Shown here one piece after another: positions 42,839 through 61,602 of a stretch of DNA of 64,000 nt. Position 1 is the first letter of the stretch, and the number at the start of each line of letters is the position of its first letter. This DNA comes from Euryarchaeota archaeon (GTDB lineage Archaea; Thermoplasmatota; SW-10-69-26; JACQPN01): the NCBI GenBank assembly GCA_016207515.1, contig JACQPN010000023.1, positions 62,001 through 126,000 on the forward strand. Reading direction: 5' to 3'. The position numbers and the translations under genes were made by a program. The notes under the pieces were generated by a model. It saw only the letters and a program-made list of their open reading frames with translations, did not search any database and had not been told where the DNA came from.

Positions 42839-43924
42839 TTATCTTGAAGCCCGGTCCGCGAACGCGTCGAGGGCACCCGAGAGCACCCGGATCGCCGCGA
42901 GATACTCTTCGAGGTCGAGGCGTTCGAGCGGCGTATGGTCGAGCGAAGAGTCTCCCGGCCCATACGCGATGATAGGCACGCCCGGGTGCGCCTTCGAAAG
43001 GATGTTCATGTCGGCGGTGCCGGTCTTCTTGAGAAACGTCGGAGCGATGCCGTTGGCGCGCATCGATGAAATCATCGCCGAAACGAGTGGGTTGCTCTTT
43101 CCGGAAAGGACCGCGTCCACGGCTTCCGCGTACTCTATCGTCGCGGCGTCCCTCGAGGAGGACACGTGGCTTTCGAACGCGACCCGGTCAAAACCTGGTG
43201 GTGTCCGGACGTCGATCAACATCTCGACGCCTGCGTCGAGCCCGTCCCTTGCCGTGCGAAACTCTTTGAGCGTCGGCGTCACGTCGTTGAACCCGGCCCT
43301 CGCGCCGTTCTTAGGGTACTTCGACAGGATCGCCTCCCAGAAAGCCACGGCCTGCTCCGCGGGGCTTCGCTCGCCAAGTCCCGTGTGCGCCTCCGCTTGC
43401 CGCAACCGGTAGCGGATCTTCGTTGAGCCCTTGTACCCGATGGTGATGCCGGAGACCCCGGACGGCTCGCCGATGATGATCGCTGTCGGCGCGTACCTCG
43501 GGGCGGCGAAATGCGCTCCCCGACTGTCGCCCTCCTCGCCGACGGCGCCGATCACTATCACTTTGAGCCGGGCGTCGTCGACGAACCGGGAGGCCGCGAC
43601 CGTGAAGGCGGCCAATGGGCCCTTGGCGTCGACGCTTCCACGCCCCCAAAGATGCCTTCCTTCGACCCTCACGGGGATTCTACCCGGGTAGGTATCGATG
43701 TGACCCAGAAGAAGCAGCGTGGTCTTGCCTGTGCCGGCGGTCCCAACCACGTTGCCGATGCCGTCGATACTCGCATCAAGCCCGAGGTCGAGCATCTGTT
43801 CCTCTAGGAAACCACAAGCTTCCTTCTCGCCTCCCGCGGGACTCTCGATGTCCACGAGTCCCTTGAGAAGGGCCAAAGAGCGCCCCGAGGAAGTCGCCTG
43901 CGCGGTCGAGCCATCCTCCTTCAC
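42839..43924 (-). CDS. lysK: [LysW]-lysine/ornithine hydrolase
   Basis: 361 residues from GTG 43924, 6 nt after lysJ. An M20-family zinc carboxypeptidase; it releases lysine from the gamma-carboxyl of LysW's C-terminal Glu in the last pathway step. Zinc-site motifs: LLLLGHIDTYPG, GRGSVDAKGPLAAF and GAVGEEGDSRGA, and a final His in SSLDHTPLERL. It is the last gene of the lysine operon. In some archaea the same enzyme also serves arginine (ornithine) synthesis; no arginine-specific gene is seen here, so a bifunctional role is possible but unproved. Confidence 0.92.
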   Translation of the reverse strand: MKEDGSTAQATSSGRSLALLKGLVDIESPAGGEKEACGFLEEQMLDLGLDASIDGIGNVVGTAGTGKTTLLLLGHIDTYPGRIPVRVEGRHLWGRGSVDAKGPLAAFTVAASRFVDDARLKVIVIGAVGEEGDSRGAHFAAPRYAPTAIIIGEPSGVSGITIGYKGSTKIRYRLRQAEAHTGLGERSPAEQAVAFWEAILSKYPKNGARAGFNDVTPTLKEFRTARDGLDAGVEMLIDVRTPPGFDRVAFESHVSSSRDAATIEYAEAVDAVLSGKSNPLVSAMISSMRANGIAPTFLKKTGTADMNILSKAHPGVPIIAYGPGDSSLDHTPLERLDLEEYLAAIRVLSGALDAFADRASR

Positions 43925-43930
43925 TGTCCT

Positions 43931-45103
43931 TCAACTCCCGGTGGAAAGGACCCTGTCGATGCGGGACAGGGCGAAGTCGATCTGGTCTTGTTCCACAACG
44001 AGTGGAGGAAGCAGGCGGATCGTGGTCGCTCCAGCAGGAAGACAGATGACGCCCTCGTCTATCAGCGCCGTCAGCACCGGTCCGGCCCTTTCCCTTAGTT
44101 CGAGCGCGCACATGAGGCCGAGGCCCCGCGTCTCCCGGATCTTCGGGCTTTTCAAGGACCGTAGCCCCGAGAGAAGCGCGTCGCCCATCTTCGCGGCCCT
44201 TGCCGGCAGGTCGTTTTCCACGATGTAATCGAGCGTTGCGTTCGCGGCGGCGCAGACGAGCGGTGATCCGCCGAACGTGTTCCCGTGGGCCGCGACGGGG
44301 AGTGTTGCGACCTCGGGCCGCATCAACGTGGCGCCCGCTGGAAGCCCTCCAGCGATCGATTTCGCGACGCAGACGATGTCGGGTTCGCCCCCGAAGTGGT
44401 CGAGCGCCCACATCCGCCCCGTCCGGCCAAGGCCAGATTGGATCTCGTCGATGATGAGGAGGGCGCCGACGGCGCTCGTTATCCGCCGGGCGGCGCGGAG
44501 GTAATCGGGGGGGACGATTCTAACGCCGCCTTCCCCCTGGACGACTTCGATGATGAAGGCGGCCGTCTCGGACGTGACCGCTTTTTCCAGCTCGCCGTTG
44601 CTTCCGTGCGTAACGAAGGAGAACCCCGGGACAAGCGGTCCGAACGGTTCACGGTACTCGGGCTTGTAGGTGGCCGAGAGGGCCCCGAAAGTGCGCCCAT
44701 GGAAGGCCCATTTCGTCGAGACTATCCCGGTCTTGCCTGTCGCGGCGCGGGCGAACTTTATGGCCGCCTCGACGGCCTCGGCACCCGAGTTCGAGAGGAA
44801 GGTCTTCGAAAGGCCATTGGGCGCGATCTTCGCGAGCCTGTCGAGAAGTCCCGCGCGTTCCTCCGTGAAATGGGTCTGCGGGACGTAGATCAACTTGTCG
44901 GCCTGGCGTTTGATCGCCTTGACGACGGCGTCGTTGTTGTGCCCGACGTTCAAGACACCGTAATTCGCCCCGAAATCCAGGTATTCGCGGCCTTTCGAGT
45001 CCCACACCTTGACCCCCTTGCCGCGGACGATGTCCACATGCCGCTTCGGGAACACCCCGGATTCGTGCCGCGTCTCGATCGCCTTCATTTCCTCGAGATT
45101 CAT
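43931..45103 (-). CDS. lysJ: [LysW]-aminoadipate semialdehyde aminotransferase
   Basis: 390 residues, ATG 45103 overlapping the lysZ stop (ATGA). A class-III PLP-dependent aminotransferase of the acetylornithine-transaminase family that converts LysW-aminoadipate semialdehyde to LysW-lysine with glutamate. Motifs: FLSNSGAEAVEAAIKFAR, KWAFHGRTFGAL, IIEVVQGEGGV, ALLIIDEIQSGLGRTG and the PLP Lys in VCVAKSIAGGLP, and HGNTFGGSPL. Its place between lysZ and lysK defines its substrate as the LysW-bound one. Catalytic residues are intact. Confidence 0.94.
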   Translation of the reverse strand: MNLEEMKAIETRHESGVFPKRHVDIVRGKGVKVWDSKGREYLDFGANYGVLNVGHNNDAVVKAIKRQADKLIYVPQTHFTEERAGLLDRLAKIAPNGLSKTFLSNSGAEAVEAAIKFARAATGKTGIVSTKWAFHGRTFGALSATYKPEYREPFGPLVPGFSFVTHGSNGELEKAVTSETAAFIIEVVQGEGGVRIVPPDYLRAARRITSAVGALLIIDEIQSGLGRTGRMWALDHFGGEPDIVCVAKSIAGGLPAGATLMRPEVATLPVAAHGNTFGGSPLVCAAANATLDYIVENDLPARAAKMGDALLSGLRSLKSPKIRETRGLGLMCALELRERAGPVLTALIDEGVICLPAGATTIRLLPPLVVEQDQIDFALSRIDRVLSTGS

Positions 45104-45903
45104 GAGATCACCGTTCCCACGCCTTCGATGGCCCGCGTGAGGGGCTTCTCGACGCTCGCCAGGGCGAGTATGACGCGAGGTACACCTGCCTCGATGGCCT
45201 CCTTGGCGCCGAGGAGTTTCTTTTTCATCCTGCCTTGGGCGAACCTCTCGATGGTCTCGTCAATGGCCGAACGGGCGATCGCCGCGATCAAGGTCGACCT
45301 GTCGCTCGGGTCGCGTAAGACCCCCGGCACGTTCGTCAAGATAACGAGCGCCTCGGCCTTCATGGCGCCCGCCACCTGCGCCGCCGCCCTGTCGGCATCG
45401 GCATTCAGGACATCGCCCTCGTGGCCCAGCACGGGGACCCCGATCACAGGGACGTATCCATGCGAAAGGAGGAGCGTCAACAACGCCGTGTTCACGCCGT
45501 CGATGGTCCCGGTGTGGTCACCGCGAAGTATCATCGTCTTGCCGTGCTCCACGGACCGTACGGTGTCCTTCCTGCGGGCCATGAGGAGCCCCCCGTCGAT
45601 CCCTGAGAGGCCGACCGCGTTGATGCCGGATTTCCTCATTCCTGCCACGAGCCTTGCGTTCACTCCCGCAAGCGCCATCGTGAAGATGTCCAGCGTCTCG
45701 GAGTCCGTGAAACGAGAAACGTGGCCTGATGGGGACGTGATGAAGCGCGGTGGGTGGCCCAACTTTTCCGAGAGGACGTTCGCCGCGTCGCTACCCCCAT
45801 GGACCACGACGACGTCACGGCGGCCCCGCAGGTCCTGGACGATCTTTTCGGTCGCGACGCCCGCCGCGCCCCCGATCTTCAAGACGATCACCGCCATCTT
45901 CAC
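45100..45903 (-). CDS. lysZ: [LysW]-aminoadipate 6-kinase
   Basis: 267 residues from GTG 45903, overlapping the lysY stop (GTGA). An amino-acid kinase of the acetylglutamate-kinase family that phosphorylates the side-chain carboxyl of LysW-bound aminoadipate. Motifs: IVLKIGGA, VVVVHGGSDAANVLSEKLG, GYVPVIGVPVLGHEG, LNADADRAAAQVAGAMKAEALVILTNVPGVL and a C-terminal KKLLGAKEAIEAGV. The size is normal. Stepwise overlaps on both sides suggest stoichiometric synthesis with lysY and lysJ. Confidence 0.93.
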   Translation of the reverse strand: MKMAVIVLKIGGAAGVATEKIVQDLRGRRDVVVVHGGSDAANVLSEKLGHPPRFITSPSGHVSRFTDSETLDIFTMALAGVNARLVAGMRKSGINAVGLSGIDGGLLMARRKDTVRSVEHGKTMILRGDHTGTIDGVNTALLTLLLSHGYVPVIGVPVLGHEGDVLNADADRAAAQVAGAMKAEALVILTNVPGVLRDPSDRSTLIAAIARSAIDETIERFAQGRMKKKLLGAKEAIEAGVPRVILALASVEKPLTRAIEGVGTVIS

Positions 45904-46949
45904 ACCGGGTGTAGCCCCACGAAGTCGAGGCCGCTCTTTTCTGGCAGTCCCAAGGCGATGTTCATGTTCTGTACCGCTGCCCCGGCGGAGCCCTTTGTGA
46001 GGTTATCGAGCGCCGATATCACGACGAGGCGGTCCGTGCCTTCCTCGCGCTCGAAGCCGATGTCTATGAGATTGGTCCCCGCTAGCATCTTCGGCTCGGG
46101 GAGGCGGTTGATGCCGTCCCGCTCCTTGACTATCCTCACGAACGGCTCGCTTCCATACGCCTCGCGATAGAGTTTCCAGATGTCCTTCTCGGAGATCTCC
46201 TCTTTCAGGAACACGTGGCTCGTCGTGAGGATCCCACGGACCAGTTCCACCGCGTGGGCGCTGAAATGCACCGTCGGGGCCACGCCGGCCACCGTCAACT
46301 CCTGCACGACCTCCGCTGCGTGCCGGTGTCCCGTCGGGGCGTAGGCCCGGACGATGCCGCTACGCTCCGCGTGGTGTGTGCCCCTGTTCGATTCGGCGCC
46401 TCCCGCGGACGAACCGACCTTGCTGTCTATGATGACGCGCGACGGGTCGGCGATACCTCGCATGAACAGTGGCCAGAGGGGGATGATGGCGGAAGTGGCG
46501 ATGCATCCGGCGCCGCTCACGATCAAGGCAGGTTTGATTTCTGCACGGTGGAGCTCGGCGATCCCATAGACGCTTCTCGAAAGGAGTTCCGGGTCCGAGT
46601 GCTCCCCGTAGTGGTGCTCGTATGTCTTCGCGTCGCGCAGGCGAAAATCCGCAGACAGGTCGAAGTAGCGGTCGCATTTGTCCATCAGTTTCCGGGCGTT
46701 CGGTGCGCTCTTTCCGTGGGGCGCGCACGACACGATCACGTCGGATTCGCCGACCTCCGAATGACGGACGTATTTGGCATCGGTGACCTTCCGTAGGTTT
46801 GGGTGCGTCGAGGAGACCGCTTTCCCCGCGAACCTGTCGCTCGTCGACTCGCCGAGTTCAACGTTTGGGTGACGTAGAAGCAGGCGTACGAGTTCGCCGC
46901 CGGTGTACCCGGAGGCGCCGACGACAGAGACGCGGAAACGGCCCGTCAA
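45900..46949 (-). CDS. lysY: [LysW]-aminoadipyl-phosphate reductase
   Basis: 349 residues from TTG 46949, which gives the family N-terminus (FRVSVVGASGYTGGELVRLLLRHP); a longer upstream frame overlapping lysX is a shadow. An NADPH-dependent ArgC-family reductase that makes LysW-aminoadipate semialdehyde. The catalytic Cys is in SGAGCIATSAIIPLWPL, and further motifs are SCAPHGKSAP, DLSADFRLRD, GSSAGGAESNRGTHHAER, APTGHRHAAEV and ALDNLTKGSAGAAVQNMN. The gap to lysX is 31 nt. The family also includes ArgC, so use for arginine synthesis as well is possible. Confidence 0.93.
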   Translation of the reverse strand: MTGRFRVSVVGASGYTGGELVRLLLRHPNVELGESTSDRFAGKAVSSTHPNLRKVTDAKYVRHSEVGESDVIVSCAPHGKSAPNARKLMDKCDRYFDLSADFRLRDAKTYEHHYGEHSDPELLSRSVYGIAELHRAEIKPALIVSGAGCIATSAIIPLWPLFMRGIADPSRVIIDSKVGSSAGGAESNRGTHHAERSGIVRAYAPTGHRHAAEVVQELTVAGVAPTVHFSAHAVELVRGILTTSHVFLKEEISEKDIWKLYREAYGSEPFVRIVKERDGINRLPEPKMLAGTNLIDIGFEREEGTDRLVVISALDNLTKGSAGAAVQNMNIALGLPEKSGLDFVGLHPV

Positions 46950-46980
46950 TGGTCGCGCCCCGCGGTAGGACAACCGGCCT

Positions 46981-47877
46981 TCAACGCTTTCCCACCTCGA
47001 TGACGTGGTCCATGATCTTTCCGGGGATATCGACGCCCGTCGGGGCCACGCTGTTCTTGAACTCCATCGTATAGTTGACCTCGTGGACGGTGTAGCCCGA
47101 TCCCGTCTCCATGACGTCGAGCGCCAGTACGCCGCCGCCGACCGCGCGAGCGCCGGCGAGCGACATCGCGTGTAGTTCCTTGTCGATGGGGGCCTTCTCG
47201 GCGTTTCCACCGCGGGCCGTGTTCGTGATCCAATGCTCGGAACGCCGGTAGATGGCGGCGATCACCTCGTCCCCGACGACGAAGACCCGGATGTCGCGAC
47301 CGGGCTTGTTCACGTACTCCTGGACGTAGAAGATGCTGTGTAGATAGGAGCCCAGCGTCGCCTTGTGCTCCACTATCGCCTCCGCCGTGTAGCGGTTGTC
47401 GATCTTCGCCATGAGCCGTCCCCACGAACCGACCACCGGTTTGAGGACACTCGGATAGCCCATCTCGTCGATGGCCTTGAGGGCGGTGTCTGGATCGAAA
47501 GCGACGCGTGTTTTCGGGGTGGGGACACCGGCCTTCGCGAGCCGTAGCGATGTTTCCCACTTGTCGCCGCAGACCCGGGCGACGTCGTACGTGTTCACGG
47601 TAGGGATTCCGTGGTGTTCGAGCGAGCGTAGCGCATAGAGGGCGTGGCTATGGCTGATGCAACGTTCGAGGACGACGTCGTAATCGTCCCATCGCCGGTT
47701 TTCGGCAAGGGAACCGCCCGGCTGCACCCTTCCGTCCGGAAAGACGCGCGGGTCGTGGACGTCGAAGATGAGTTCACGATCGTCTATGAGTTCGAGGTCT
47801 ATCCCCCGCTTCTTGGCGGCGTCGATGATCATCTTCTCGTCGAGCCGGATGCGCGAGTAGAGCATGCCGACTTTCAT
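46981..47877 (-). CDS. lysX: Alpha-aminoadipate-LysW ligase
   Basis: 298 residues, ATG 47877 overlapping the hcs stop (ATGA). An ATP-grasp enzyme of the RimK family that links the amino group of alpha-aminoadipate to the C-terminal Glu of LysW, protecting it for the later steps. Seen: [51 protein letters not shown] (ATP loop), [27 protein letters not shown] and [21 protein letters not shown]. These last segments include the substrate-facing residues that separate LysX from ArgX, but I cannot assign specificity with certainty. LysW is two genes upstream. Confidence 0.93.
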
Positions 47878-48998
47878 GGCGAACGCTCCATAGGGGCCGC
47901 GTTGACCTCGTCAAGGAGACGCGTGAGCGCTGCGTCCGCGACGTCGTTGAGGCTTCGTTGCTTCACCAACGTGAGGACCTTATCCACCTCGCCATCGCTC
48001 ACCTTGAACCCGAGCTCCTCCAATCGGTGACGGACGGCGTCGCGGCCAGAGAGTTTGTCCACCACCATGCGTCTTCGCCTGCCTACAAGGTGGGCGGGGA
48101 TGGATTCGTAATGGGCCGGGTCCTGGAGCACGGCGGAGACGTGGAGTCCCGCGTTGTGGCTGAACGCGTTGCGCCCCACTATCGGGGCCTGTGGGCTCAA
48201 AGGTATGCGGCTGTGGACCTCGACCACTTCGGAGAGGCGCGGCAGGAGCTCCAGCTTCCACGGGTTGTCGGCCCCGAGGCGAAGCTTCAGTGCGGCGGCC
48301 GTCTCCGCGAGGGGGGCGATCCCGGTGCGTTCGCCGAGTCCGTTCACGGAGACGTCGACGACCACGGCGCCCGCTTCGACGGCGGCGAGGCTGTTCGCGA
48401 CCGCCATGCCAAGGTCGTTGTGGCAGTGCATCGACACCGGTGCGTGCACCTCGTCGATCAACCGTTGGACGAAATCATAGGTGCGCCTGGGCGTCATGAA
48501 CCCGGTCGTGTCCGCGATGCCTATCCTGTCCGCACCAGCCTCCCTTGCGGCGCGGGCCACGCGTACGACTTTCGAGAAGTCGCTTCGGACGGTGTCTTCC
48601 GGCGTGTAGCGCACCTTCACGCCCCGTTCCTTGGCGTAGGCGACGCAATCGCTGATGAGCGACACGGCCTGGTCCACGTTCTTCCTGAACTGACTTTCGA
48701 GCCTGCGGTCGGCGACGCTGAAGAAGATGCCTACCCAATCGGCGCCGGCCTCCACCGCTTTGTCGATGTCGGCGCGCATCGCCCTCGAGTGCGCGACGAT
48801 CTCCGCGTCGAGCCCCGCTCCGGCGACTTCCTTCACAGCCCGGAAGATCTCGCTCGAGACGGCCGGATGGCCCGCCTCGATGAATTCGACGCCGAACCCG
48901 TCCAAGAGGCTTGCGATCTCCAGTTTCTCCTCGACGCTGAAGGAGACGCCGGGCGTCTGTTCGCCCTCTCGCAAGGTGCTGTCGAGCAGTTTCACCAT
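47874..48998 (-). CDS. hcs: Homocitrate synthase
   Basis: 374 residues from ATG 48998, 6 nt after lysW. A DRE-TIM metallolyase that condenses 2-oxoglutarate with acetyl-CoA, the first step of lysine synthesis through aminoadipate. Seen: [74 protein letters not shown] and [13 protein letters not shown]. Isopropylmalate and citramalate synthases look alike; the operon context decides for homocitrate. The C-terminus lacks a long LeuA-type allosteric domain, as usual for archaeal homocitrate synthases. The homoaconitase and homoisocitrate dehydrogenase genes are not in the window. Confidence 0.93.
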
Positions 48999-49748: not shown

Positions 49749-52700
49749 CTATTCCTTCTGGTCCTTGGCCCGTTTCTCCCGTTCAGCGTCGGCCTTCGAA
49801 ACGATGGTCGCCGGCGGCCCCGCGTCCTTCATTCCGCGTAGCGCGGCCTGGCTTTTCATGACAGGTTCGGTGCCGGTTTTCGCGGACCTTGAAAGCACAT
49901 CGAACGAGCGTGACGACGGCGCCACGAGCCCGCCTTTGGCCGCTTCCGGCGGCGGGGATTTCGTGGGCCCTGCCGCAAGCGCCCTCATCACCGCATTGCT
50001 CTTCGCAGCGGCCAGGGTCGCTTGCGCGTTGGCGGCACCGAGTGGCGTCGCCACAGACGTCGAGGCCGGCCGTGCGGGTGATGCCGTGGATCCCAGTGCC
50101 CGCGCCACTGCGTTGCTCTTGGCGAGCGCGACCTGCGGGACTCCTATCGGTGACGGGAAAGCATCGTCTTCATCGCCCGCGCCGCGTCGTGCCGCGCGCG
50201 AGCGAAGCACCATTCGGGCAAGGACAAGGCTTTCCCCGCCGACGACTGCGCCGAGCCCCAACGTGAGCCACATGAATAGGGGCGGTACGCCCGGGACGAT
50301 GGTCTTGATCTGGACGGTGCGCAGGCTGAAGTGCGGGATGGGGAGTGTGATGATGAGCGAGGTGTCGTCTGCGGCCGCGCCGACGCTGGTCGAGTCGAGG
50401 CGTAGGCCGTCGAGCGCCAGTTCGAGACCGCCGCTACGCATGATCTCGGCGGGAAGGATGAGCCTCACGGGTTTCTTCGCTTGTTCGCTTCCCGCGTAGA
50501 CGCCGATCGTCCAGGTGTCATCGACGCCGTTGAGCCCGCTCCACCAATCGGTGATGCCGGTCTCGGAAGCCACATCGATCTGTGCCTTGCTCCCGGCCCA
50601 CCCCACAGCGGCCATGCGGTCGCTCGCAAGGTACACGACACCGATCTCCTCGGCGTCCTGGCGTGCCAACTCCATGACTCCCGCGTAGCGCGTAGCGGCA
50701 GAACTCTTCACCCGGTAGGCGAGGAGGTATTCGGCGGCGACGACCTCTGAGACGCCCGCGTGGTCGATGGTTAGGATGAGGACCCGGCCTTCCAGGTGGA
50801 GCGTCGCTTTGGAGACGTCTCCAGAAAGGACAAGGCCCGCGACCTCGGTGGAATTCGGATCGTAGACCGCGAACCAACGGTTGGTCCTACCCTCCAGGGT
50901 GAAGGTCAAAAGGTCGGTCTCTTCGATGGGGATGGCCTTGATCGTGCCGTCGGCGTCGGTCGTCGCAAGCCATGAGCCCGGCGTCGCCGGAAGTTCGGCC
51001 ACGGTTTCGATGGTCACCAGGTCGCCCGCACCAGAGCGAAGACTGGTCCTCACGTCGACGTGCATGGTGCCCTCCAGGATCGTGGAGGTCCGCGTCGCCG
51101 TGGCCGTGCCTGACGACGCCGTGGTCTCCAGGTAGAGCCTGCCGTCGGCGAAGTCATCGCGTCGCGTCGCCGTGCCTCGAAGACCGGAGACGTCGACGGC
51201 CTCAAGTCCCACGTGGGCTGAAGATGGCGGGATGGAGCGCAGAGCAAGGCCCCCGATCGAATGCGTGGTCTCGCCGCCAGCTACGCTCGTGAGAGCGCCG
51301 AGCACGTTCCTCGACGTGAGGACCGCCCCGTCGAATTCGACCGGCGTCGGTTTCGGCCTGAAGACCCCGTAGAGGTACGCTTGGCCATCGCTTGATTCAA
51401 GATAGTCCGATCCCGCCTCGCCCGAGAGTTCCGCTTTCTGCCAGGAGGATGGGTAGTCTTCGCGATGGGCGAGTCTCGCCGCATATGCTTCCTTGTAGTA
51501 ACCGAAGGTCCCCCGCGTGGCGTCGATGGATTGGGTCGCAATCTGGCTGTTGGGAAGGATTCGGACCTTGGAACTGGCCTTGGCGTTTCCAACAGAGACG
51601 GTCACGATGTCGTCGCCGGGCATGAAGGGTGCCACGTACGTCGCGCCGTTGAGCGTCCCTCGGATCGCCGAGAAGGAAGTCTCCGCTTCGAGGACGTTGC
51701 CGAAACCGTCGAATGCGGTAGCGTGGAACTCGAGGGTATCACCTGCAAGCATACTTGCCTTCGCCGGGTCGAGCGTGAGACGCGCCAAGGGTGCCCCCAG
51801 GATCCTGATCGGAATAGACGCGGCGATCCCGGCCTGCTTGACCACTACGTTGCAGACGGTCACGATGGAAGGCGCTTTGAACCGGCCAGAGTCGTCGATG
51901 TCGCCGCAATCGCTTGTCCATTGGAGGCCGTAGGCGCCCGACAGACCCACCTCATTGTCGAAGAGGTCGAGGCCGGTCGCGACGATCGACACCTCGCGCC
52001 CCACTTCGACTTCCGCCTTCTCTGGTGAAAGCACTATCCGGCGAAGGGCCGAGGAGACAACGTGGATCCTGGCGTCGCCGACGGTCAAGCCGGCAAACGC
52101 GCTCACAACACATTCCCCGACCGCGAGCGGCGCCGTGAAGACGCCGTCTCTCGACACCGTGCCACAGGTGGACTTCCAGCCGGGGCTCACGGGCACACGG
52201 TTACCAAACGCGTCTGCACCATTGGCTCGAAGGGCCAATTGGCCGCCGGCGGGAACTGCGACCCCGATGGGAGTAACGCTGATGCTGTCGAGGCCGGCCA
52301 CGATCTCGACCAGGATCGACGCGGTGAGCCCGAGTTCCGAGTAGGTGAACGTGGTGGTGCCGGGGTCCGTCGGCGCCTCGAAATAGATGTCGCTTCTTAG
52401 AAGCGAGACGCTGTTTCCGAACTGGTCGAACCCGAAGAGGTCGAACCGGCCGGAGGTGCCAGTAGGGAGGAATTCAGGTCCGGTGATCTTGATCTTCGCC
52501 AAGACATCGGAAACCACCTGGACTCTCTTGCATCCGGTGACCACGCCTTCCGTGTGGCACACATCGTAGCCGCCCGCCTGCGTTGGCGCGAGGAACACCG
52601 TCGTGTATTTCGAAAGCGGCGCCCAATCGCCGATGTCGTTTGCGCCTCGAAGCTCATACACTTCAGTGGTGCCAGCCACCACGCTTGCCGGCCCTGTGAC

Positions 52701-55700
52701 AGCGATGCTACGAAGCGGCGGCTGAAGGCCGAAGAGGGCGAACGAGGAGAATTGTCGGAGTGTCACGGAATACCTGTAGTATCCGTCGATAGGCAGTGGC
52801 GCGAGAAGGGTCGCACGGATGTCAGAGCGGACAAGTTCGCCATCCGAGTATTCGGCGAGTCGTACCGAGGCGGGGTCGAGGTGGCGCTCGTCAAAGTATG
52901 ACGCCGACACACGGAGGTCGGCGTTCATCTCCTTGATCAGCGCGTTGAGCGCCACCGTGTCGGCTTCCTCCCCATCGATTGTGGCGCGGACGGTGAAGAA
53001 CATGCCGGGTTCTTCGGACGATAGAAGCCCAGCGAGCAGATCTGTCAGGTTCGAGGCATCGACTTCGACCGGTGGCGTCGCAAGGTTTCCTTCGCGAGTC
53101 TCAAGGGTCAATGCGACGTTCGTCGCGGCGGCGCCGAATCTGATGGTGGTTTCGTCGAGCGCGGCCTTCGCCGTCGCGGCGTTGATCGTCGTCACCGTGA
53201 TGTTCGCATCGGTCTCGGCCGCGGCGATTCCTATTGCGTACTGGGTGGCGACGGTTTCCTGGATCTTCCCCGTCGAAACGGTCGCGGCGACCGTAGTGTT
53301 CGTGCTCGCATTTGCCCTTAGGCTCGTCACGTGCACTGGCACTCGGGTCGTGAGGCCGGCCTTGGAGGCCGTGACGAACACCGTGCCGTCTTGTGAGCCG
53401 GCCGTGAAAACGCCGCCCGACGGCGTGATGGAGCCCAGACTGACGTTATCCACCTCCCAACTTACGTTCTCAAGCGGGACGGGGTTATGGTTCAGGTCAT
53501 GACCCGCGGAGACGAATTGCATGCTTGCGCCCGTTGACAGCGTGGCCGTCGATGGTGTCACGGAAATCTCGGCGAGTGTTCCCGCGATGACCTCGATACG
53601 GGCCGTCGCCGCCGCGTTTCCTATCCTAGCGGTGACGTCGGTGGTTCCTACCTTGAACGCTTTGAAAACGCCTCCCGAGGAAAACGTGCCGACGGTGGGA
53701 TTCTGGGCCGCGAACTTGGCGGCGACTCCACCCACCTCGTTGCCTTCGTCGTCGTAGCCTGTGACGGCGATGAACTGGTCCGCGCCGGCGGGCATCATCG
53801 CGAAGTCGGGCGCGATCTCGATGCGCGAGACGAAAGCGGATTGGGTGATCGCCTCGACGGTCGATCTGCCGGAGATGCCGCTGCCGGTCTCCCTCGCTTC
53901 CACCGATGCAGATCCATCCGAAAGGGCCCGGAATGCGCCCGTCGCCTGGTTCACTACACCGACATCGGTGTTGTTCGAGCGCCACGTGAACCGCGCCGAG
54001 GGGACGACGTTGCCATCGCGGTCCGAAGCCACGGCCTTGAAGGAGAGGGCGCCGGGCACGACGACGCGTCCGCTTGCGGGACTGACCGCGACCCTAGAGA
54101 CCGGCCCATGGATGGTGAACGAGACCGAATCCGCGAAGCTGTTCCCCGCCTCGTCAGTGACGGTCAGCGTGATGGTCTTTGCACCGGTCGAGGCGAATGG
54201 GATGCGGTCGCCTGCCTGGCATGGGAAATCGATCGGGTCTTCGGACGTCGTGCAGGTCTTCGAGACTATCGAGGACCCGGTTCCGCCGGCCCGGAAGTCG
54301 AGCGTCACGTTCTGCGAGCCGATGGATTCGCCGGACCTCGGGGAGACGATCCTGACGGTCGCCGGGACCGTGTCGATGGTCAGCGAGGACGCGTCGTTGA
54401 GGCTTGAAGGGTTTCCTGCCAGGTCTGCCGCAAAGATCTCGATTATCGCGTCGCCTTGCTCGTCTTCCGCGTCAACCTCGTACGTGTACGAGAAGACCAG
54501 GTTCGACTCCTGTTCGAAAGCCGCAAGGTTGCCGTTGATCGTGACGATGGGCGGCTCTGCGACCGGCTCGTCGCTCACGAATGTCAAAGTGACCTGCCCG
54601 GCCGTCGAGATTTGCGGCTCGACATGAAGCTCGGCCAAGGCCGGTGGGATCGTATCGACCGTGAAGGAGACGGCTTTTTCGAACACGTTGGCCGCCTGGT
54701 CAGCGACCCGCACAACGATGCGCTTCTCCCCTTCGGACGCGAAATCGAAGGTGTCCCCCGAGATACAAGCGGAAAACGGGTCGCCGTCTACGCTGCATTC
54801 TCTCGACACCACGTGAGTACCGGTTCCATCATCGTCGAAAAGGAGTGTGATCGACCGCACGTTCACGTGGTCACCGTCGAAGGGTGCTCGGAAATCGATC
54901 TCGGGCGGCACCGTGTCCACGGTGATGTCGACCGATTCGACCTTTGCGTTTCCGGCCGAGTCCTTCACCCGTATCGAAAGGGTCTGCAATCCATCGCCGG
55001 GGAATTCGAGATCCGTCGCAGCGGTGCATGGGATCCACCCTTGACCGTCGGAGAGGTCGCATGACCTTGATGCGACGCCCGAAGTGTCGTCGGAATCCGT
55101 GAAGTTCAGGAGGATCCTCGTCGAGTTGGAGATCAGCGCCTGGGTCGGCGAAAGGACGAGCAGTTCTGGCGGGGCCCGGTCCTGCTTGACGGTGGTCGTC
55201 CTGTTCTGTCCGGTGTTCCCGACAGAATCAACACCCCGGTGGGTGACCTCATAGGAACCGTCCGTGGCGATGGAGAACGGGTTGGTGAGAGGCGTCGGCG
55301 CGGGGCCGTATGTCTCGAAAGTCGTCGAAACGCAATCCATGGTCTCATCTTCGCACGAGACGCCAACAGTCACGTCGGTCACGAACCACCCGTTCTCGCC
55401 GTCCGGCGCCTCAGGGTCGGTGACCACGAAGGTGCTCGGTGCAACCGTATCAATCGTGAATAGGCCCACCTCGTGTTCCAGTGGGTGGCCGGCAAGGTCG
55501 GTGCCGGTGACCAAGACCGATGCCGCGCCCTGTTCGTCCAGGGCGGAAACGTGGTAGATGAAGGTGAAGTTCAGGTCCGCACCGCTCTGGAAAGGCGCTG
55601 AATCCCCGTTCACGGTCACCTCAGGGGCGGCCTCCAAGGCCTCGGAAGACTGGATCGTGATCGTCAACGGCCCCACCGTGGTCGCGGCTGCGGAAGCACT

Positions 55701-58586
55701 GATATCGGTGACGGAAGGTGCTGATGTGTCGATATCAAACGTCCGGTTCAGGGGCCCTGCTAGGTGGCCTGCGTTGTCCTCCACGTACCACTCGAAGCGG
55801 TGCGATCCGTCCCCGGTGACCGTCACAGGGCCCTCGTAGTCCTCGTAGTCGGCGCCATCGATGCTGAAGTTCGCGTGGGCGTCTTCGGGGAAGGAGATGA
55901 ACACCTCGACATCGGAAACGTAGATGGCGCGTCCACCGAGTCGATCACCGGTGAGGATGACCGTCGTGTTTGGCGCAGACCGGTCGATGATGAAGTTCAC
56001 GTTCTGAGCGGCCTCGGCAAGGCCGTTACCGGCCTCGCTTTGGAAGGTCAGATTGTGACTGCCATCCGCGGTCACAGTGAAAGGGGCCGAGTACACGGTC
56101 ATGGGTCCCCCGTCGAGAGCGTAGGACGTTGAAGCACCGCTCGGTCCGGACGTCCTTGACAGGGAGACGTCGACGGCCGTCACATAGATTTCGTGGGCAC
56201 CTACGCCCCCCGTAAGCGTTGCCGTGGTCGTAGGCGTCGTGCGGTCGATCTTGAAGTCGCGTGCAGCCGTGGCGGTGTTTTGAGCGGCGTCCCTCGCGCT
56301 AAAGACCACTTGGTGCGTGGCGGACTCTGAGCAGACGGAATCTAGGGTGGTATCGCCGGCGAAATAGAAGGGGGCCCCGCCATCGACGGACGCGCTCCAG
56401 TTGGTGATGCCCGACGAGGGCCCTGGATCCTCTGCCTCTAGGATCGGACTCACGCAGCTCGTGAACCAGTCCCCTGAACCGAGCGTGCCACTAAGCGTCA
56501 GCGCGGCCTCGGGTGCGACCGTGTCTATGACGAGCGTGGTCGTATCGACGTGAGTGCCGGTATTCCCGCTGCCGTCGGTGACGTCGATTGCAATCTCGGC
56601 GCTCCCTTGTTCGTCGAAGTCGTCGATTCGGTAATCGAATACTATGGAAGCCCCGGAGTGGCTAGCGAAGCTCGCCGGGTCCCCGTTCACCGTGAGTCTG
56701 GGGCCAAGGCCGTTCGCAGGCCTAAAGAGGACGATCTCGGAAAGATGTCCGCCGGGAGCGCCGCCTCCGAACAACAACGCCGCGCTTCCCGTCCACACCG
56801 CGGCGGCGGATTCTCGACCGGGCGCCAGTTCGACGTCAAGAACCGTGATCTTCTCCAGGCCAGGGTCATACTCGACGATCTGGTCAACTTCCGCAGCGCC
56901 CTCAACGCCTCCGAAAACGAAGGCCTTCGTGCCGTCCGATGCGATACTCGCGGCGTGCCGAGCCGAAGGGAGGACGGAGGCAATCGTCATAGCGACGTCT
57001 GTCCTAGGGTCGTAGCGGACGATCTCGTCCAGCGCGGTGGACCCGTCGTCTCCGCCGAGCACGAATGCGTGGCTCCCGTTCCAGAAAGAGCTTGCCGACA
57101 TGCGCCCCGAAGGAAGGGAAGCGCCCATCGTGACCAACGTGTCCTCGAACGGGTCGAACATGAGTATGTCGTCGAGGCGCGTCCCGTCGTGGCCTCCGAA
57201 AAGAAGTACGTGTCGGCCGTCCCAGACGGCGGCCATGTCGTATCGTGGCGTTGGAAGGGTGGCGACCATCGGCGTGATCGTGTCTTCCATGGGGTCGTAG
57301 CGTAGTATCTCATTCTTGAACGCTCCATCCCAACCGCCGAAGATGTAGGCTTTGCCCGCGGCCCAGACAGCGCTCGTTCCGTAGCGCGCACTGGGGAGGA
57401 CGGCATCCATCACCGTCGTCTCATCGGCAACGGGGTCGTACCGGACGATGGCGTCAGTTCTCCCGCTTGGAAGCGCTCCGCCGAAGATGTAGGCGTTTGA
57501 TCCGTCCCACACGGCGCTGTGGATTCGGGTCGCTCCGGGAAGTCGAGCGCCGGCCACGGCGAGCGTGGTCTCATCGGTGCCGATTGCGATCGTTTCCGAG
57601 AAGTCGAGCGAGATCGTCACATTGCCTGCCTTGGCGGGGTTAGGGGAGGCGGATATCGAGACGAGTTGCGGAGCCGCCGTGTCGACCACCGCTTCAAGTA
57701 CCTCTGGCGTACTCATGAGGGCCACGTCGTCAAAGGCCTTCGCGCGTAGCACGAGCGTCCCATCCACGCCGCTCGGGACTTCGAAGAATCCGGCGCCTGA
57801 CTCTTCACCGTCGTCGAACCGTTGGATCTCGTGGACGGTTTCGAGGTTCGTCCCGCTTAGAAGCTCGATCTGGAACTTCTGGAGGGGACACCCGTCGGTG
57901 AATCCGCTTGGACACGTGTCATGCGCGGCGAAGAGGTAGCGAAGGTCCTGGCCGACTTGCCAAGTGGCGATCGGGGGATCGAGCGCAAAGACGGTGATCG
58001 TGGGCGGCGTACCGTCGACGTAGACCATCGGTTGTTGCGCGGGCCCGACGGAGTGGTCCTCCGACGCGCCGGTGGAGCGGACCTCGAAGGAGACGATGGC
58101 ATTGTTCACGGTCGCGGCGCTTTTCTTGATGCTGAAACCCAAGGTGATCGACGACGCTTCCTTGGCGCCCTGGAATTCCAAGAAGGGTCTTCCGTCGGGC
58201 TCGGATCCTTGCGATGTGACGAAGGTGTGTGGACCGCCGCCAAAAAACACTTCTGGTACGCAGTCGACTTGGTCGTCGGTCGGACCTTCGCATGGGTCGC
58301 CAGTGGCGAATCGAGTCCCGACGAACAGGAATCCGGGCGGAACGATGAAACGTATCGTTTCGGGCGTGGCGATCAACGCGGTGTCGACGGTGAAGTTGAG
58401 GTCGAGTTGCGTAGATGCGGAGATAGGGCCACGGACGTGGCTCTTGGCGACGACGGCCGTGACCGTCCGGTGGGCTGCCTCAGCTTCGAAGGCGGTGAAG
58501 GGCAATGCCGACGTGGTAAGAAGGACGAATAGCGCCAAGGCTCTCGTGATCTTTCGGGATCGTGATGCGTCGGTGGATCGGCTCAC
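49749..58586 (-). CDS. Giant (2,945 aa) surface protein: kelch propeller nested in Ig-like domain, Big_2-like repeats, TM, cytosolic tail
   Basis: GTG 58586 overlaps the AbrB-gene stop (GTGA). A signal peptide is followed by an N-terminal beta domain (40-200) and Ig-like modules. A six-blade kelch propeller (about 344-628; AYIFGG, LLFGGHDG) sits inside one Ig-like domain. Next come OmpL47-like repeats with YVTAVDVSLS or YVSDVEVFIS, IDT-type Ig repeats, and Big_2-like domains in two blocks around a 200-residue domain resembling the halobacterial PGF-pre-PGF region. Near 2768-2790 lies a transmembrane helix (LFMWLTLGLGAVVGGESLVLA), then a 155-residue basic/Ala-rich tail with three KSxAxxR motifs. 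The layout is that of a surface receptor or adhesin; function not established. Confidence 0.85.
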   Translation of the reverse strand: MSRSTDASRSRKITRALALFVLLTTSALPFTAFEAEAAHRTVTAVVAKSHVRGPISASTQLDLNFTVDTALIATPETIRFIVPPGFLFVGTRFATGDPCEGPTDDQVDCVPEVFFGGGPHTFVTSQGSEPDGRPFLEFQGAKEASSITLGFSIKKSAATVNNAIVSFEVRSTGASEDHSVGPAQQPMVYVDGTPPTITVFALDPPIATWQVGQDLRYLFAAHDTCPSGFTDGCPLQKFQIELLSGTNLETVHEIQRFDDGEESGAGFFEVPSGVDGTLVLRAKAFDDVALMSTPEVLEAVVDTAAPQLVSISASPNPAKAGNVTISLDFSETIAIGTDETTLAVAGARLPGATRIHSAVWDGSNAYIFGGALPSGRTDAIVRYDPVADETTVMDAVLPSARYGTSAVWAAGKAYIFGGWDGAFKNEILRYDPMEDTITPMVATLPTPRYDMAAVWDGRHVLLFGGHDGTRLDDILMFDPFEDTLVTMGASLPSGRMSASSFWNGSHAFVLGGDDGSTALDEIVRYDPRTDVAMTIASVLPSARHAASIASDGTKAFVFGGVEGAAEVDQIVEYDPGLEKITVLDVELAPGRESAAAVWTGSAALLFGGGAPGGHLSEIVLFRPANGLGPRLTVNGDPASFASHSGASIVFDYRIDDFDEQGSAEIAIDVTDGSGNTGTHVDTTTLVIDTVAPEAALTLSGTLGSGDWFTSCVSPILEAEDPGPSSGITNWSASVDGGAPFYFAGDTTLDSVCSESATHQVVFSARDAAQNTATAARDFKIDRTTPTTTATLTGGVGAHEIYVTAVDVSLSRTSGPSGASTSYALDGGPMTVYSAPFTVTADGSHNLTFQSEAGNGLAEAAQNVNFIIDRSAPNTTVILTGDRLGGRAIYVSDVEVFISFPEDAHANFSIDGADYEDYEGPVTVTGDGSHRFEWYVEDNAGHLAGPLNRTFDIDTSAPSVTDISASAAATTVGPLTITIQSSEALEAAPEVTVNGDSAPFQSGADLNFTFIYHVSALDEQGAASVLVTGTDLAGHPLEHEVGLFTIDTVAPSTFVVTDPEAPDGENGWFVTDVTVGVSCEDETMDCVSTTFETYGPAPTPLTNPFSIATDGSYEVTHRGVDSVGNTGQNRTTTVKQDRAPPELLVLSPTQALISNSTRILLNFTDSDDTSGVASRSCDLSDGQGWIPCTAATDLEFPGDGLQTLSIRVKDSAGNAKVESVDITVDTVPPEIDFRAPFDGDHVNVRSITLLFDDDGTGTHVVSRECSVDGDPFSACISGDTFDFASEGEKRIVVRVADQAANVFEKAVSFTVDTIPPALAELHVEPQISTAGQVTLTFVSDEPVAEPPIVTINGNLAAFEQESNLVFSYTYEVDAEDEQGDAIIEIFAADLAGNPSSLNDASSLTIDTVPATVRIVSPRSGESIGSQNVTLDFRAGGTGSSIVSKTCTTSEDPIDFPCQAGDRIPFASTGAKTITLTVTDEAGNSFADSVSFTIHGPVSRVAVSPASGRVVVPGALSFKAVASDRDGNVVPSARFTWRSNNTDVGVVNQATGAFRALSDGSASVEARETGSGISGRSTVEAITQSAFVSRIEIAPDFAMMPAGADQFIAVTGYDDEGNEVGGVAAKFAAQNPTVGTFSSGGVFKAFKVGTTDVTARIGNAAATARIEVIAGTLAEISVTPSTATLSTGASMQFVSAGHDLNHNPVPLENVSWEVDNVSLGSITPSGGVFTAGSQDGTVFVTASKAGLTTRVPVHVTSLRANASTNTTVAATVSTGKIQETVATQYAIGIAAAETDANITVTTINAATAKAALDETTIRFGAAATNVALTLETREGNLATPPVEVDASNLTDLLAGLLSSEEPGMFFTVRATIDGEEADTVALNALIKEMNADLRVSASYFDERHLDPASVRLAEYSDGELVRSDIRATLLAPLPIDGYYRYSVTLRQFSSFALFGLQPPLRSIAVTGPASVVAGTTEVYELRGANDIGDWAPLSKYTTVFLAPTQAGGYDVCHTEGVVTGCKRVQVVSDVLAKIKITGPEFLPTGTSGRFDLFGFDQFGNSVSLLRSDIYFEAPTDPGTTTFTYSELGLTASILVEIVAGLDSISVTPIGVAVPAGGQLALRANGADAFGNRVPVSPGWKSTCGTVSRDGVFTAPLAVGECVVSAFAGLTVGDARIHVVSSALRRIVLSPEKAEVEVGREVSIVATGLDLFDNEVGLSGAYGLQWTSDCGDIDDSGRFKAPSIVTVCNVVVKQAGIAASIPIRILGAPLARLTLDPAKASMLAGDTLEFHATAFDGFGNVLEAETSFSAIRGTLNGATYVAPFMPGDDIVTVSVGNAKASSKVRILPNSQIATQSIDATRGTFGYYKEAYAARLAHREDYPSSWQKAELSGEAGSDYLESSDGQAYLYGVFRPKPTPVEFDGAVLTSRNVLGALTSVAGGETTHSIGGLALRSIPPSSAHVGLEAVDVSGLRGTATRRDDFADGRLYLETTASSGTATATRTSTILEGTMHVDVRTSLRSGAGDLVTIETVAELPATPGSWLATTDADGTIKAIPIEETDLLTFTLEGRTNRWFAVYDPNSTEVAGLVLSGDVSKATLHLEGRVLILTIDHAGVSEVVAAEYLLAYRVKSSAATRYAGVMELARQDAEEIGVVYLASDRMAAVGWAGSKAQIDVASETGITDWWSGLNGVDDTWTIGVYAGSEQAKKPVRLILPAEIMRSGGLELALDGLRLDSTSVGAAADDTSLIITLPIPHFSLRTVQIKTIVPGVPPLFMWLTLGLGAVVGGESLVLARMVLRSRAARRGAGDEDDAFPSPIGVPQVALAKSNAVARALGSTASPARPASTSVATPLGAANAQATLAAAKSNAVMRALAAGPTKSPPPEAAKGGLVAPSSRSFDVLSRSAKTGTEPVMKSQAALRGMKDAGPPATIVSKADAEREKRAKDQKE

Positions 58587-59358: not shown

Positions 59359-60993
59359 ATGAAGTACATCGTGGTCACGGGCGGTGTCTTGTCAGGTCTT
59401 GGCAAGGGCATCACCACTTCTTCCATCGGTCGCCTCTTGAAAGCCCGCGGCGTGCGCCTCGCTGCGGTGAAGATCGATCCGTACGTGAATTGCGACGCGG
59501 GCACGATGAACCCGTTCGAGCACGGCGAGGTCTTCGTCCTGGACGACGGCGGCGAGGTAGACCTCGATCTTGGGAATTATGAGCGTTTTCTCTCGGACAA
59601 CATGAGCCGGCAGTCGAACATCACCACCGGCACCGTGTACAAGAGCGTCATAGAGAAGGAGCGACGCGGCGACTATCTCGGAAAGACCGTCCAGATAATC
59701 CCCCACGTCACTAACGAGATCCGCGAGCGGGTCAAACGGGTGGCGAAGGACGCCGATGCGGAGGTCTGCCTCATCGAGGTCGGCGGCACCGTCGGCGATA
59801 TCGAGTCGATGCCGTTCCTCGAGGCGTTGCGCCAACTGCGCATCGAGGCCGGGCGCGAGAACATGGTCTTCATACACACCACACTCGTGCCGGTCCTTGG
59901 CGTCGTCGGGGAGCAGAAGACGAAGCCGACGCAGACAAGCGTCAAGGAGCTTCGATCCCTTGGGATCGACCCCGAAATGATCGTCTGCCGCTCCTCCGAA
60001 CTCCTCGAACCTAAAACGAAGGCCAAGATCGCATTGTTCTGCGATGTCGACGAGCGGGCGGTGATCGGCGCTCCCGACGCCCGCACGATCTACGAAGTCC
60101 CGATGACGCTCGCCGAGCAAGGTGTCGACGAGTGGCTCATACGACGCCTTTCGATAGAGGCGCACGAGAACGACCTCTCCGATTGGCGCTCCTACGTGGA
60201 ACGGATCGTGAACCCGAAGTTCTTCGCGGAAGTCTACGTCGTCGGCAAGTACACTCACCTCGCCGACTCGTACCTGTCGATAACGGAGGCGTTCACGCAC
60301 GCTGGTGCGGAACTCAACACGCGCGTCAAGGTCCGTTGGGTCGACGCCGAGCAGTTCGAGAAAGACCCGTCGAAGGTAGCCGAAGTGCTCCAGAACGCGC
60401 ATGGCATACTCGTCCCCGGCGGGTTCGGCTCGCGCGCGACCGAAGGGAAGATGCTCGCGATCAAGTACGCCCGCGAGGCGGAGATACCGTTCCTCGGCAT
60501 CTGTTTCGGCTTCCAACTCGCCACCTGCGAGTTCGCTCGGAGTGTATGCGACCTTCAAGGCGCGAATTCGACGGAGGTGAATCCGGACACGCAGCACCCG
60601 GTCATCGATATCCTGCCCGAGCAGCGCACCGTACAGGGCCTCGGGGGGACCATGCGCCTCGGCGCCTCGCCGATCAAGATAACGCCCAACTCCAGGGCCC
60701 ATCAACTCTATGGCAAGACCGAAGCCGCGGAAAGGCACCGCCACCGCTACGAGGTCAATCCGGGCTATATCCCGAAGTTGGAAGCGAAAGGGCTTCGCTT
60801 CGTCGGAAAGGACCCGACCGGGAACCTCATGGAGATACTCGAGTTGCCTTACCACCCGTTCTTCGTCGGGAGCCAATTCCACCCAGAGTTCATGTCGCGG
60901 CCCATGAGACCCGCGCCGCTCTTCCATGGGTTCGTCGAGGCCGCCAAGGAACGGATGTTGCGATCGGGCATCCATGAAGCAGTGAAGGCGTAA
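59359..60993 (+). CDS. pyrG: CTP synthase
   Basis: 544 residues from ATG 59359 (GTG 59353 is two codons upstream). It aminates UTP to CTP, using glutamine ammonia. The synthase domain has [18 protein letters not shown] (ATP loop), [38 protein letters not shown] and GTVGDIES; the glutaminase domain has [12 protein letters not shown], the catalytic Cys in [13 protein letters not shown] and the His/Glu pair in SQFHPEF. The usual GICLGMQ here reads GICFGFQ, but the Cys is kept. The first of a likely transcription unit with the adenylate kinase and the CDP-alcohol transferase, whose substrate would be a CTP-derived lipid. Confidence 0.95.
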
Positions 60994-61035
60994 AGTGGCT
61001 AGACCAGGCATCCGCGAACGGGCAAAGGCGCCACC

Positions 61036-61602
61036 ATGAAAGCACCCGCGCGCCTTGTGGCACTCACGGGAACGCCGGGCGTAGGAAAGAGCGCTGCCGC
61101 CGCCCTCCTCGAAAGAGAGTTCTTGGTGATCCACTTGAACGAACTCGTCCGCTCGAGCGGTGTCGGGGAGGGCCGCGACCGTCATCGCCAAAGCCTTGAG
61201 GTCGACCCACGTCGACTGGCCGCGCCGCTTCGACGCGCCGTCGGGCTCGCTTCGCGGGGCGCCGGACCGTCGTCGCAGGCGATCGTCGAGGGGCATTTGA
61301 GCCATCTCGTTCCGGGGATCTCCCGTGCGATCGTATTGCGGCTTTCCCCCCGGGTACTGCGGCGGCGTCTCGCCGCGAGACGCTGGAGGAGGACGAAGAT
61401 CGAGGAGAACGTCGAGGCCGAGGGGATGGGCATCATCGCGGACGAATGCCGCACCCTCGACGACGCATGCGAGATCGACGTCACGGGCATGACCAGGGCA
61501 CAAGTCGCCGCATCTGTGCGCCGCCTCGCCCGCTCCAGCCGACCGGCAAGAAGATACGCCTTGGGCTCCGTCGACTGGTCGGAGGACGATTCATGGTACT
61601 AG
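61036..61602 (+). CDS. AK6/Fap7-type adenylate kinase
   Basis: 188 residues. A P-loop (VALTGTPGVGKSAAAALL), the Walker-B-like region VEGHLSHL, and a broken lid with RLSPRVLRRRLAARRW and KIEENVEAE define the archaeal/eukaryotic AK6 (Fap7) family, which transfers phosphate between ATP and AMP and assists small-subunit ribosome maturation. The C-terminal 25 residues (SSRPARRYALGSVDWSEDD) are an archaeal extension. The gene overlaps the next by 10 nt. Confidence 0.9.
   Translation: MKAPARLVALTGTPGVGKSAAAALLEREFLVIHLNELVRSSGVGEGRDRHRQSLEVDPRRLAAPLRRAVGLASRGAGPSSQAIVEGHLSHLVPGISRAIVLRLSPRVLRRRLAARRWRRTKIEENVEAEGMGIIADECRTLDDACEIDVTGMTRAQVAASVRRLARSSRPARRYALGSVDWSEDDSWY

Follow-up and report, generated by a model that had tools for sequence, protein, structure and literature searches.

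Within a window of 64,000 nucleotides of an archaeal genome (Euryarchaeota archaeon, assembly GCA_016207515.1, contig JACQPN010000023.1, positions 62,001 to 126,000; this whole stretch is the window below), an open reading frame (ORF) for a surface protein of 2,945 amino acids (aa) raises the question of whether a kelch propeller sits inside a single immunoglobulin (Ig)-like domain, and what such an arrangement could be for. An original prediction, made from the letters of the DNA, held that the first Ig-like copy of this protein is broken by six kelch repeats and resumes after them, and that two later sister copies run through the same point unbroken. The alignments and structure models described here support a single Ig domain interrupted at one loop by a complete propeller. 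The genome comprises 2.67 Mb in 25 contigs and contains archaeal small- and large-subunit rRNA. The frame of the 2,945-aa ORF is continuous, without an internal stop. The parts that bear on the split are:

49749..58586, minus strand: surface protein ORF, 2,945 aa, GTG start
57588..57686, minus strand: N-terminal half of the Ig-like host domain (strands A and B), residues 301-333; profile positions 1-34, strands in the model
56703..57587, minus strand: inserted six-bladed kelch propeller, residues 334-628, 295 aa; Pfam, blade hidden Markov model (HMM), AlphaFold2 and Foldseek
56511..56702, minus strand: C-terminal half of the Ig-like host domain, residues 629-692; profile positions 35-99, E 7e-12 genome-wide
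55437..55730, minus strand: uninterrupted sister Ig-like copy 1, residues 953-1050
54360..54656, minus strand: uninterrupted sister Ig-like copy 2, residues 1311-1409

We built an Ig profile HMM from the two uninterrupted sister copies only, which are 37% identical to each other, and searched it over the whole genome. Up to E 10 there were six matches: the two sisters, the two halves and two at chance level. Profile positions 35-99 match residues 628-692 (E 7e-12) and positions 1-34 match residues 302-335 (E 0.03), so that the profile is split exactly at 34|35 around the propeller, with no position lost or repeated between the halves. Ig copies of this subtype number three in the whole genome, all in the 2,945-aa protein. 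The N-terminal half scores 18.1 bits, a value reached by none of 5,000 shuffles (best 13.1); other 33-residue pieces of the protein outside the Ig copies score at most 9.0 bits. The break point aligns with short loops of 3-4 residues in the sisters (EAAP and AEPP), between a strand ending FSETI and a strand starting PRLTVNG, which by the alignment and the strands of the model is the loop between the second and third strands. The sister-only profile thus bears out the claim of one broken copy beside unbroken ones. The insertion is likewise nested, as had been proposed. The split is precise and collinear, and the length of the insert is corrected from about 285 to 295 residues (net about 290).

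Pfam names neither half of this domain. The halves alone give no Big_13 match, and sister copy 1 aligns to positions 12-102 of the 102 in PF19077 (Big_13) at 15.9 bits, below the cut-off of 27. The best stretch of the whole-protein Big_13 match (1197-1225) lies away from the host Ig copies.

In the insert itself a blade HMM finds six tandem blades over residues 349-633, the sixth match running from 587 to 633:

57543..57575, minus strand: probable N-terminal closing strand DETTLAVAGAR, residues 338-348; model strand 341-354, would complete blade 6
57399..57542, minus strand: kelch blade 1, residues 349-396, blade HMM
57258..57398, minus strand: kelch blade 2, residues 397-443, blade HMM
57117..57257, minus strand: kelch blade 3, residues 444-490, blade HMM
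56973..57116, minus strand: kelch blade 4, residues 491-538, blade HMM, LGG in place of FGG
56829..56972, minus strand: kelch blade 5, residues 539-586, blade HMM
56703..56828, minus strand: kelch blade 6, residues 587-628, blade HMM, without a fourth strand of its own

The [FL]GG motif recurs at residues 368, 416, 463, 510, 558 and 606. The six repeats of the original prediction are therefore recovered as blades, and the motifs given for them need loosening: FGG is present in five, with LGG at residue 510, and the LPxxR start is strict in four, the first reading LPGATR and the last LAPGR. Four Pfam kelch families exceed their cut-offs at E 1e-29 to 1e-10 (bits, with the cut-off in brackets: PF24681 103.8 (50), PF13415 68.7 (22), PF01344 58.3 (20.1), PF13964 41.1 (25.3)). 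By these scores, the predicted fold and a whole number of four-stranded blades in tandem, with GG in the second strand, the insert belongs to the kelch-repeat beta-propellers. For blade 6 the match covers no more than positions 1-42 of the 48 in the blade model. Pairing of an N-terminal strand with the last blade is a common way for a propeller to close. Based on sequence and model, the insert is probably a whole propeller, with DETTLAVAGAR as its closing strand.

Structure prediction, which had been suggested as a check, was made with AlphaFold2 after dropping alignments in which sister Ig copies were misplaced. The predicted local distance difference test (pLDDT) values of the propeller are mostly 93-98 in both models, and Foldseek matches it to six-bladed kelch domains (Keap1, NS1-BP and designed SAKe6 proteins) with E of about 1e-18 and target template modelling (TM) scores of about 0.82-0.87; the matches listed are propellers and hence bear on the propeller only. 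For the second model the N-half and C-half rows were supplied apart, with no row spanning both. In the best of its five versions (predicted TM score, pTM, 0.80) pLDDT is about 74-84 in the N-half and 72-79 in the C-half, falling to 48 in the last residues, and two strands precede the propeller (model residues 10-16 and 23-31) and five follow it. The check thus yielded a confident propeller with strands on both sides, and the pairing of the halves was read from topology and confidence. The propeller fold is well supported by prediction; that the two halves form a single Ig fold is less sure on the model, and the sequence evidence for one Ig domain is stronger than the model.

The host protein has the outline of a membrane-anchored stalk, its two ends being:

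58473..58586, minus strand: probable signal peptide, residues about 1-38; hydrophobic 19-mer at residues 16-35, putative cut site
50202..50300, minus strand: C-terminal membrane anchor, residues about 2763-2795; hydropathy and alignment, common to four paralogues of the same genome

Before the anchor lies a long run of Ig-like stretches, in which Pfam finds Big_13 at 1197-1225 and Big_2 at 1496-1564, and after the anchor comes a charged tail. The four paralogues are clustered on contig 25 and have the membrane-proximal region and anchor in common with the 2,945-aa protein; one has a kelch propeller at the N terminus of the mature protein. This cluster (locus L086, 273000-289000) encodes proteins of about 1465, 567, 517 and 1550 aa, with a shared anchor and a cytoplasmic tail of repeated S-x-A-V-x-R-A-L-G motifs that ends in a zinc-ribbon-like CxxC...CxxC. 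The anchor and tail repeats recur in the 2,945-aa protein and the zinc-ribbon-like end is absent from it.

How could such a unit work? In our reading, a self-closing six-bladed propeller (334-628) would take the place of the 3-4-residue loop between Ig strands two and three. Pairing of the N-terminal strand with the last blade would bring the propeller ends side by side, so that exit and re-entry could pass through one loop and leave the host sandwich intact. Given the probable signal peptide and the C-terminal anchor, the nested unit would lie near the outer end of the long Ig-like stalk. The host Ig most likely acts as a split domain that holds the propeller sideways, and one propeller face may then be free for a partner, such as a glycan, a protein of another cell or an adjacent component of the cell coat.

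The split Ig-like domains of RTX adhesins hold ligand-binding domains away from the stalk, with both ends of the insert on one side and the binding site facing away (PMC12077191; PMC10865825), and the presence of a split domain has served in bacterial adhesins to point out a ligand-binding head (PMC12077191). The adhesins AhLap of A. hydrophila, FrhA of V. cholerae and MpIBP of M. primoryensis resemble the archaeal protein in their interrupted Ig-like stalk domain with a projecting domain, in the insert ends lying together and in the long Ig-like stalk. They differ in that they are Gram-negative proteins with type I export and RTX repeats, whose inserts are carbohydrate-binding, PA14, peptide-binding or RTX domains and not propellers; the archaeal protein has a C-terminal membrane anchor, a kelch propeller and an insert near the N terminus. 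No RTX family is among its Pfam matches. Because of the lack of RTX repeats and the C-terminal anchoring, it is not an RTX adhesin. The anatomy is in principle the same (an Ig-like stalk anchored in the membrane at its far end, with an insert close to the free end whose two ends lie together), and by this analogy we consider it likely that the nested propeller is a binding or contact head on a split stalk domain of an adhesin-like, membrane-anchored archaeal protein. Directly observed were the split Ig copy and its break point, six blades and an anchor-like segment; the binding role and sideways projection are what we infer from them.

Several observations weigh against this reading. The first model, made without N-half rows, gave pLDDT of 29-67 in the Ig part (pTM 0.75). 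Among the five second-run models the best has a mean pLDDT of 89.9 and the others about 83, and even in this better model the Ig part is of moderate confidence only. For the empty site the only evidence comes from the sister copies, at 37-41% identity.

The propeller could instead be a surface enzyme, an epimerase-, oxidase- or lyase-like kelch protein for which the split Ig is merely a carrier. Some kelch propellers are enzymes, and there is a faint match to NANM (N-acetylneuraminate epimerase; E 1e-4), which at 21.6 bits is below the cut-off of 45. No catalytic family is above cut-off among the Pfam matches, the structures solved for its best relatives are of binding domains or of designed propellers, and the six blades differ from the seven generally known in galactose-oxidase enzymes, so that the insert does not fall with the galactose-oxidase-type kelch enzymes. 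We regard an enzymatic role as unlikely. Slightly less probable still is a structural role, in which the propeller would serve the archaeal cell coat as a spacer or lattice contact without a specific ligand. It would fit the many kelch, fibronectin type III (fn3), PKD and Ig-type surface proteins of the genome and window, and both propeller and PKD domains are known components of archaeal surface proteins (PMC2447325). The propeller, however, occurs once in the stalk and is not repeated, and plugging into a side loop would bring a spacer no obvious gain.

It is very improbable that the arrangement is not nested and that a tandem propeller merely happens to be flanked by a degenerate, independent stub on its N-terminal side and a self-contained domain on its C-terminal side. 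The N-half alone reaches only E 0.03 over the genome and the model is no more than moderately confident in its Ig part, but the two halves share out the profile exactly, meeting at a single point with neither overlap nor gap; a piece of 33 residues is too small to be a domain, and strands A and B are missing from the C-half. A search for homologues had been proposed as a further check. No orthologue was found in 60 relatives searched with the nested unit, in 390 genomes of the phylum searched with the Ig profile, in 31 relatives searched with both the N-terminal portion and the remainder of the protein, or in one scan of GTDB genome contigs. Domains with and without the propeller can therefore be compared only through the two sister copies within this protein. 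The searches also gave no homologue in which the flanks are separate complete domains.

The insert resembles its surroundings in composition (GC content 0.64 and GC at third codon positions, GC3, 0.74, compared with 0.62-0.64 and 0.75-0.77 in the rest of the gene), and the two junctions share no word of at least 7 bases. An assembly chimera or recent foreign insertion, for which nothing specific speaks beyond the 25 contigs of the genome, can practically be dismissed given these figures, the continuous stop-free frame and a tree that places paralogues from this genome closest to the inserted propeller. Kelch matches cover 45 stretches of the genome, some of which are the query itself or Ig matches. 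In most of its kelch proteins the propeller directly follows the signal peptide, has a similar closing strand and is often succeeded by fn3 domains; a 2,166-aa subtilase-like protein has two propellers in tandem with CARDB and fn3. The nested propeller pairs in the tree with the N-terminal propeller (plus fn3) of a 519-aa paralogue, L089 (support 93/92 and 89/92, neither starred). Based on this pairing and the host-like GC and GC3, the insert was probably drawn from kelch sequences already present in this genome and not acquired recently from outside.

The same genome holds another nested propeller. In a 2,255-aa protein (L092; contig 12, 34000-49000), a kelch propeller lies between SBBP units 4 and 5. 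With an SBBP profile built from three intact units, seven units are recovered (309-349, 370-425, 437-499, 504-559, 881-946, 950-1012 and 1019-1084). Unit 4 ends at position 56 of the 66 in the profile and is followed by about 310 residues of kelch propeller with blade matches at 566-875, so that a six-bladed kelch propeller (residues about 560-870) is set within a seven-unit SBBP propeller. SBBP and kelch are both above Pfam cut-offs. By its sequence, this is a propeller nested in a propeller, with the same loop-plug layout in a different host. The two hosts are unrelated, which implies two insertion events. The approximately unbiased (AU) test did not reject a shared origin for both nested propellers (p 0.149); separate donor lineages for them were thus not established.

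We entertain tentatively, at somewhat less than an even chance, the joint view that the self-closing kelch propellers of this phylum are loop-plug cassettes that entered extracellular beta-rich hosts of unrelated kinds in several independent events, the hosts being the Ig sandwich, the SBBP propeller and possibly jelly-roll-like domains in other genomes. If true, this would be a general route to side-projecting heads on surface stalks.

Some related arrangements were seen by eye. In L021 (residues about 60-1130 of the longest frame) and L022, both from other genomes of the phylum, kelch repeats appear between seeming jelly-roll-like halves; the kelch run in L021 is very long, and in L034 only the first half was seen. 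In L101 (contig 19, 105000-119000; ORF about 440-890), kelch blades are seemingly interrupted by a jelly-roll- or lectin-like stretch at about 545-715, which would be the reverse nesting.

Other known systems share parts of this design. In the integrin beta subunit an I-like domain is inserted in the Ig-type hybrid domain. As in the archaeal protein, a ligand-binding domain sits within an Ig-type loop; the insert is alpha/beta and serves allosteric signalling, and there is no homology. Keap1/KLHL and other six-bladed kelch proteins have the same fold, blade number and motif, but Keap1/KLHL are intracellular animal adaptors joined end to end with their neighbour domains and not nested. Galactose oxidase likewise combines a kelch propeller with an Ig-like domain; it is a seven-bladed enzyme in which the Ig-like domain follows the propeller and is not nested. 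Methanosarcina surface proteins with beta-propeller and PKD domains share the archaeal surface and the combination of propeller and Ig-like domains. As far as we know their order is tandem and their propellers are of other types, and we know of no description of nesting in them.

There are precedents for each of nested insertion, split Ig hosts and kelch propellers; in the open-licence papers searched, no split Ig domain turned up with a kelch or any other propeller in it. More interesting than this combination is that a kelch propeller has also been inserted into another, unrelated host in this genome. Interrupted domains escape ordinary annotation, as the two Ig halves did here. If the split-domain rule holds in archaea, it would point to the part of huge uncharacterised surface proteins that contacts the outside and would yield testable constructs.

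The remaining genes of the window include another surface-type protein on the minus strand (7631-17338), larger at 3,235 aa, with CARDB domains and mostly without Pfam match. Adjoining the gene of the 2,945-aa protein is a minus-strand ORF of 703 aa (59392-61503) without Pfam match, which is overlapped by a 546-aa plus-strand ORF and may not be a gene. The minus-strand genes at 42839-48998 fit an archaeal LysW-type lysine (or arginine) pathway; they encode an M20 peptidase, a class III aminotransferase, an amino acid kinase, a semialdehyde dehydrogenase, a LysX-like ATP-grasp protein and a homocitrate-synthase-like protein.

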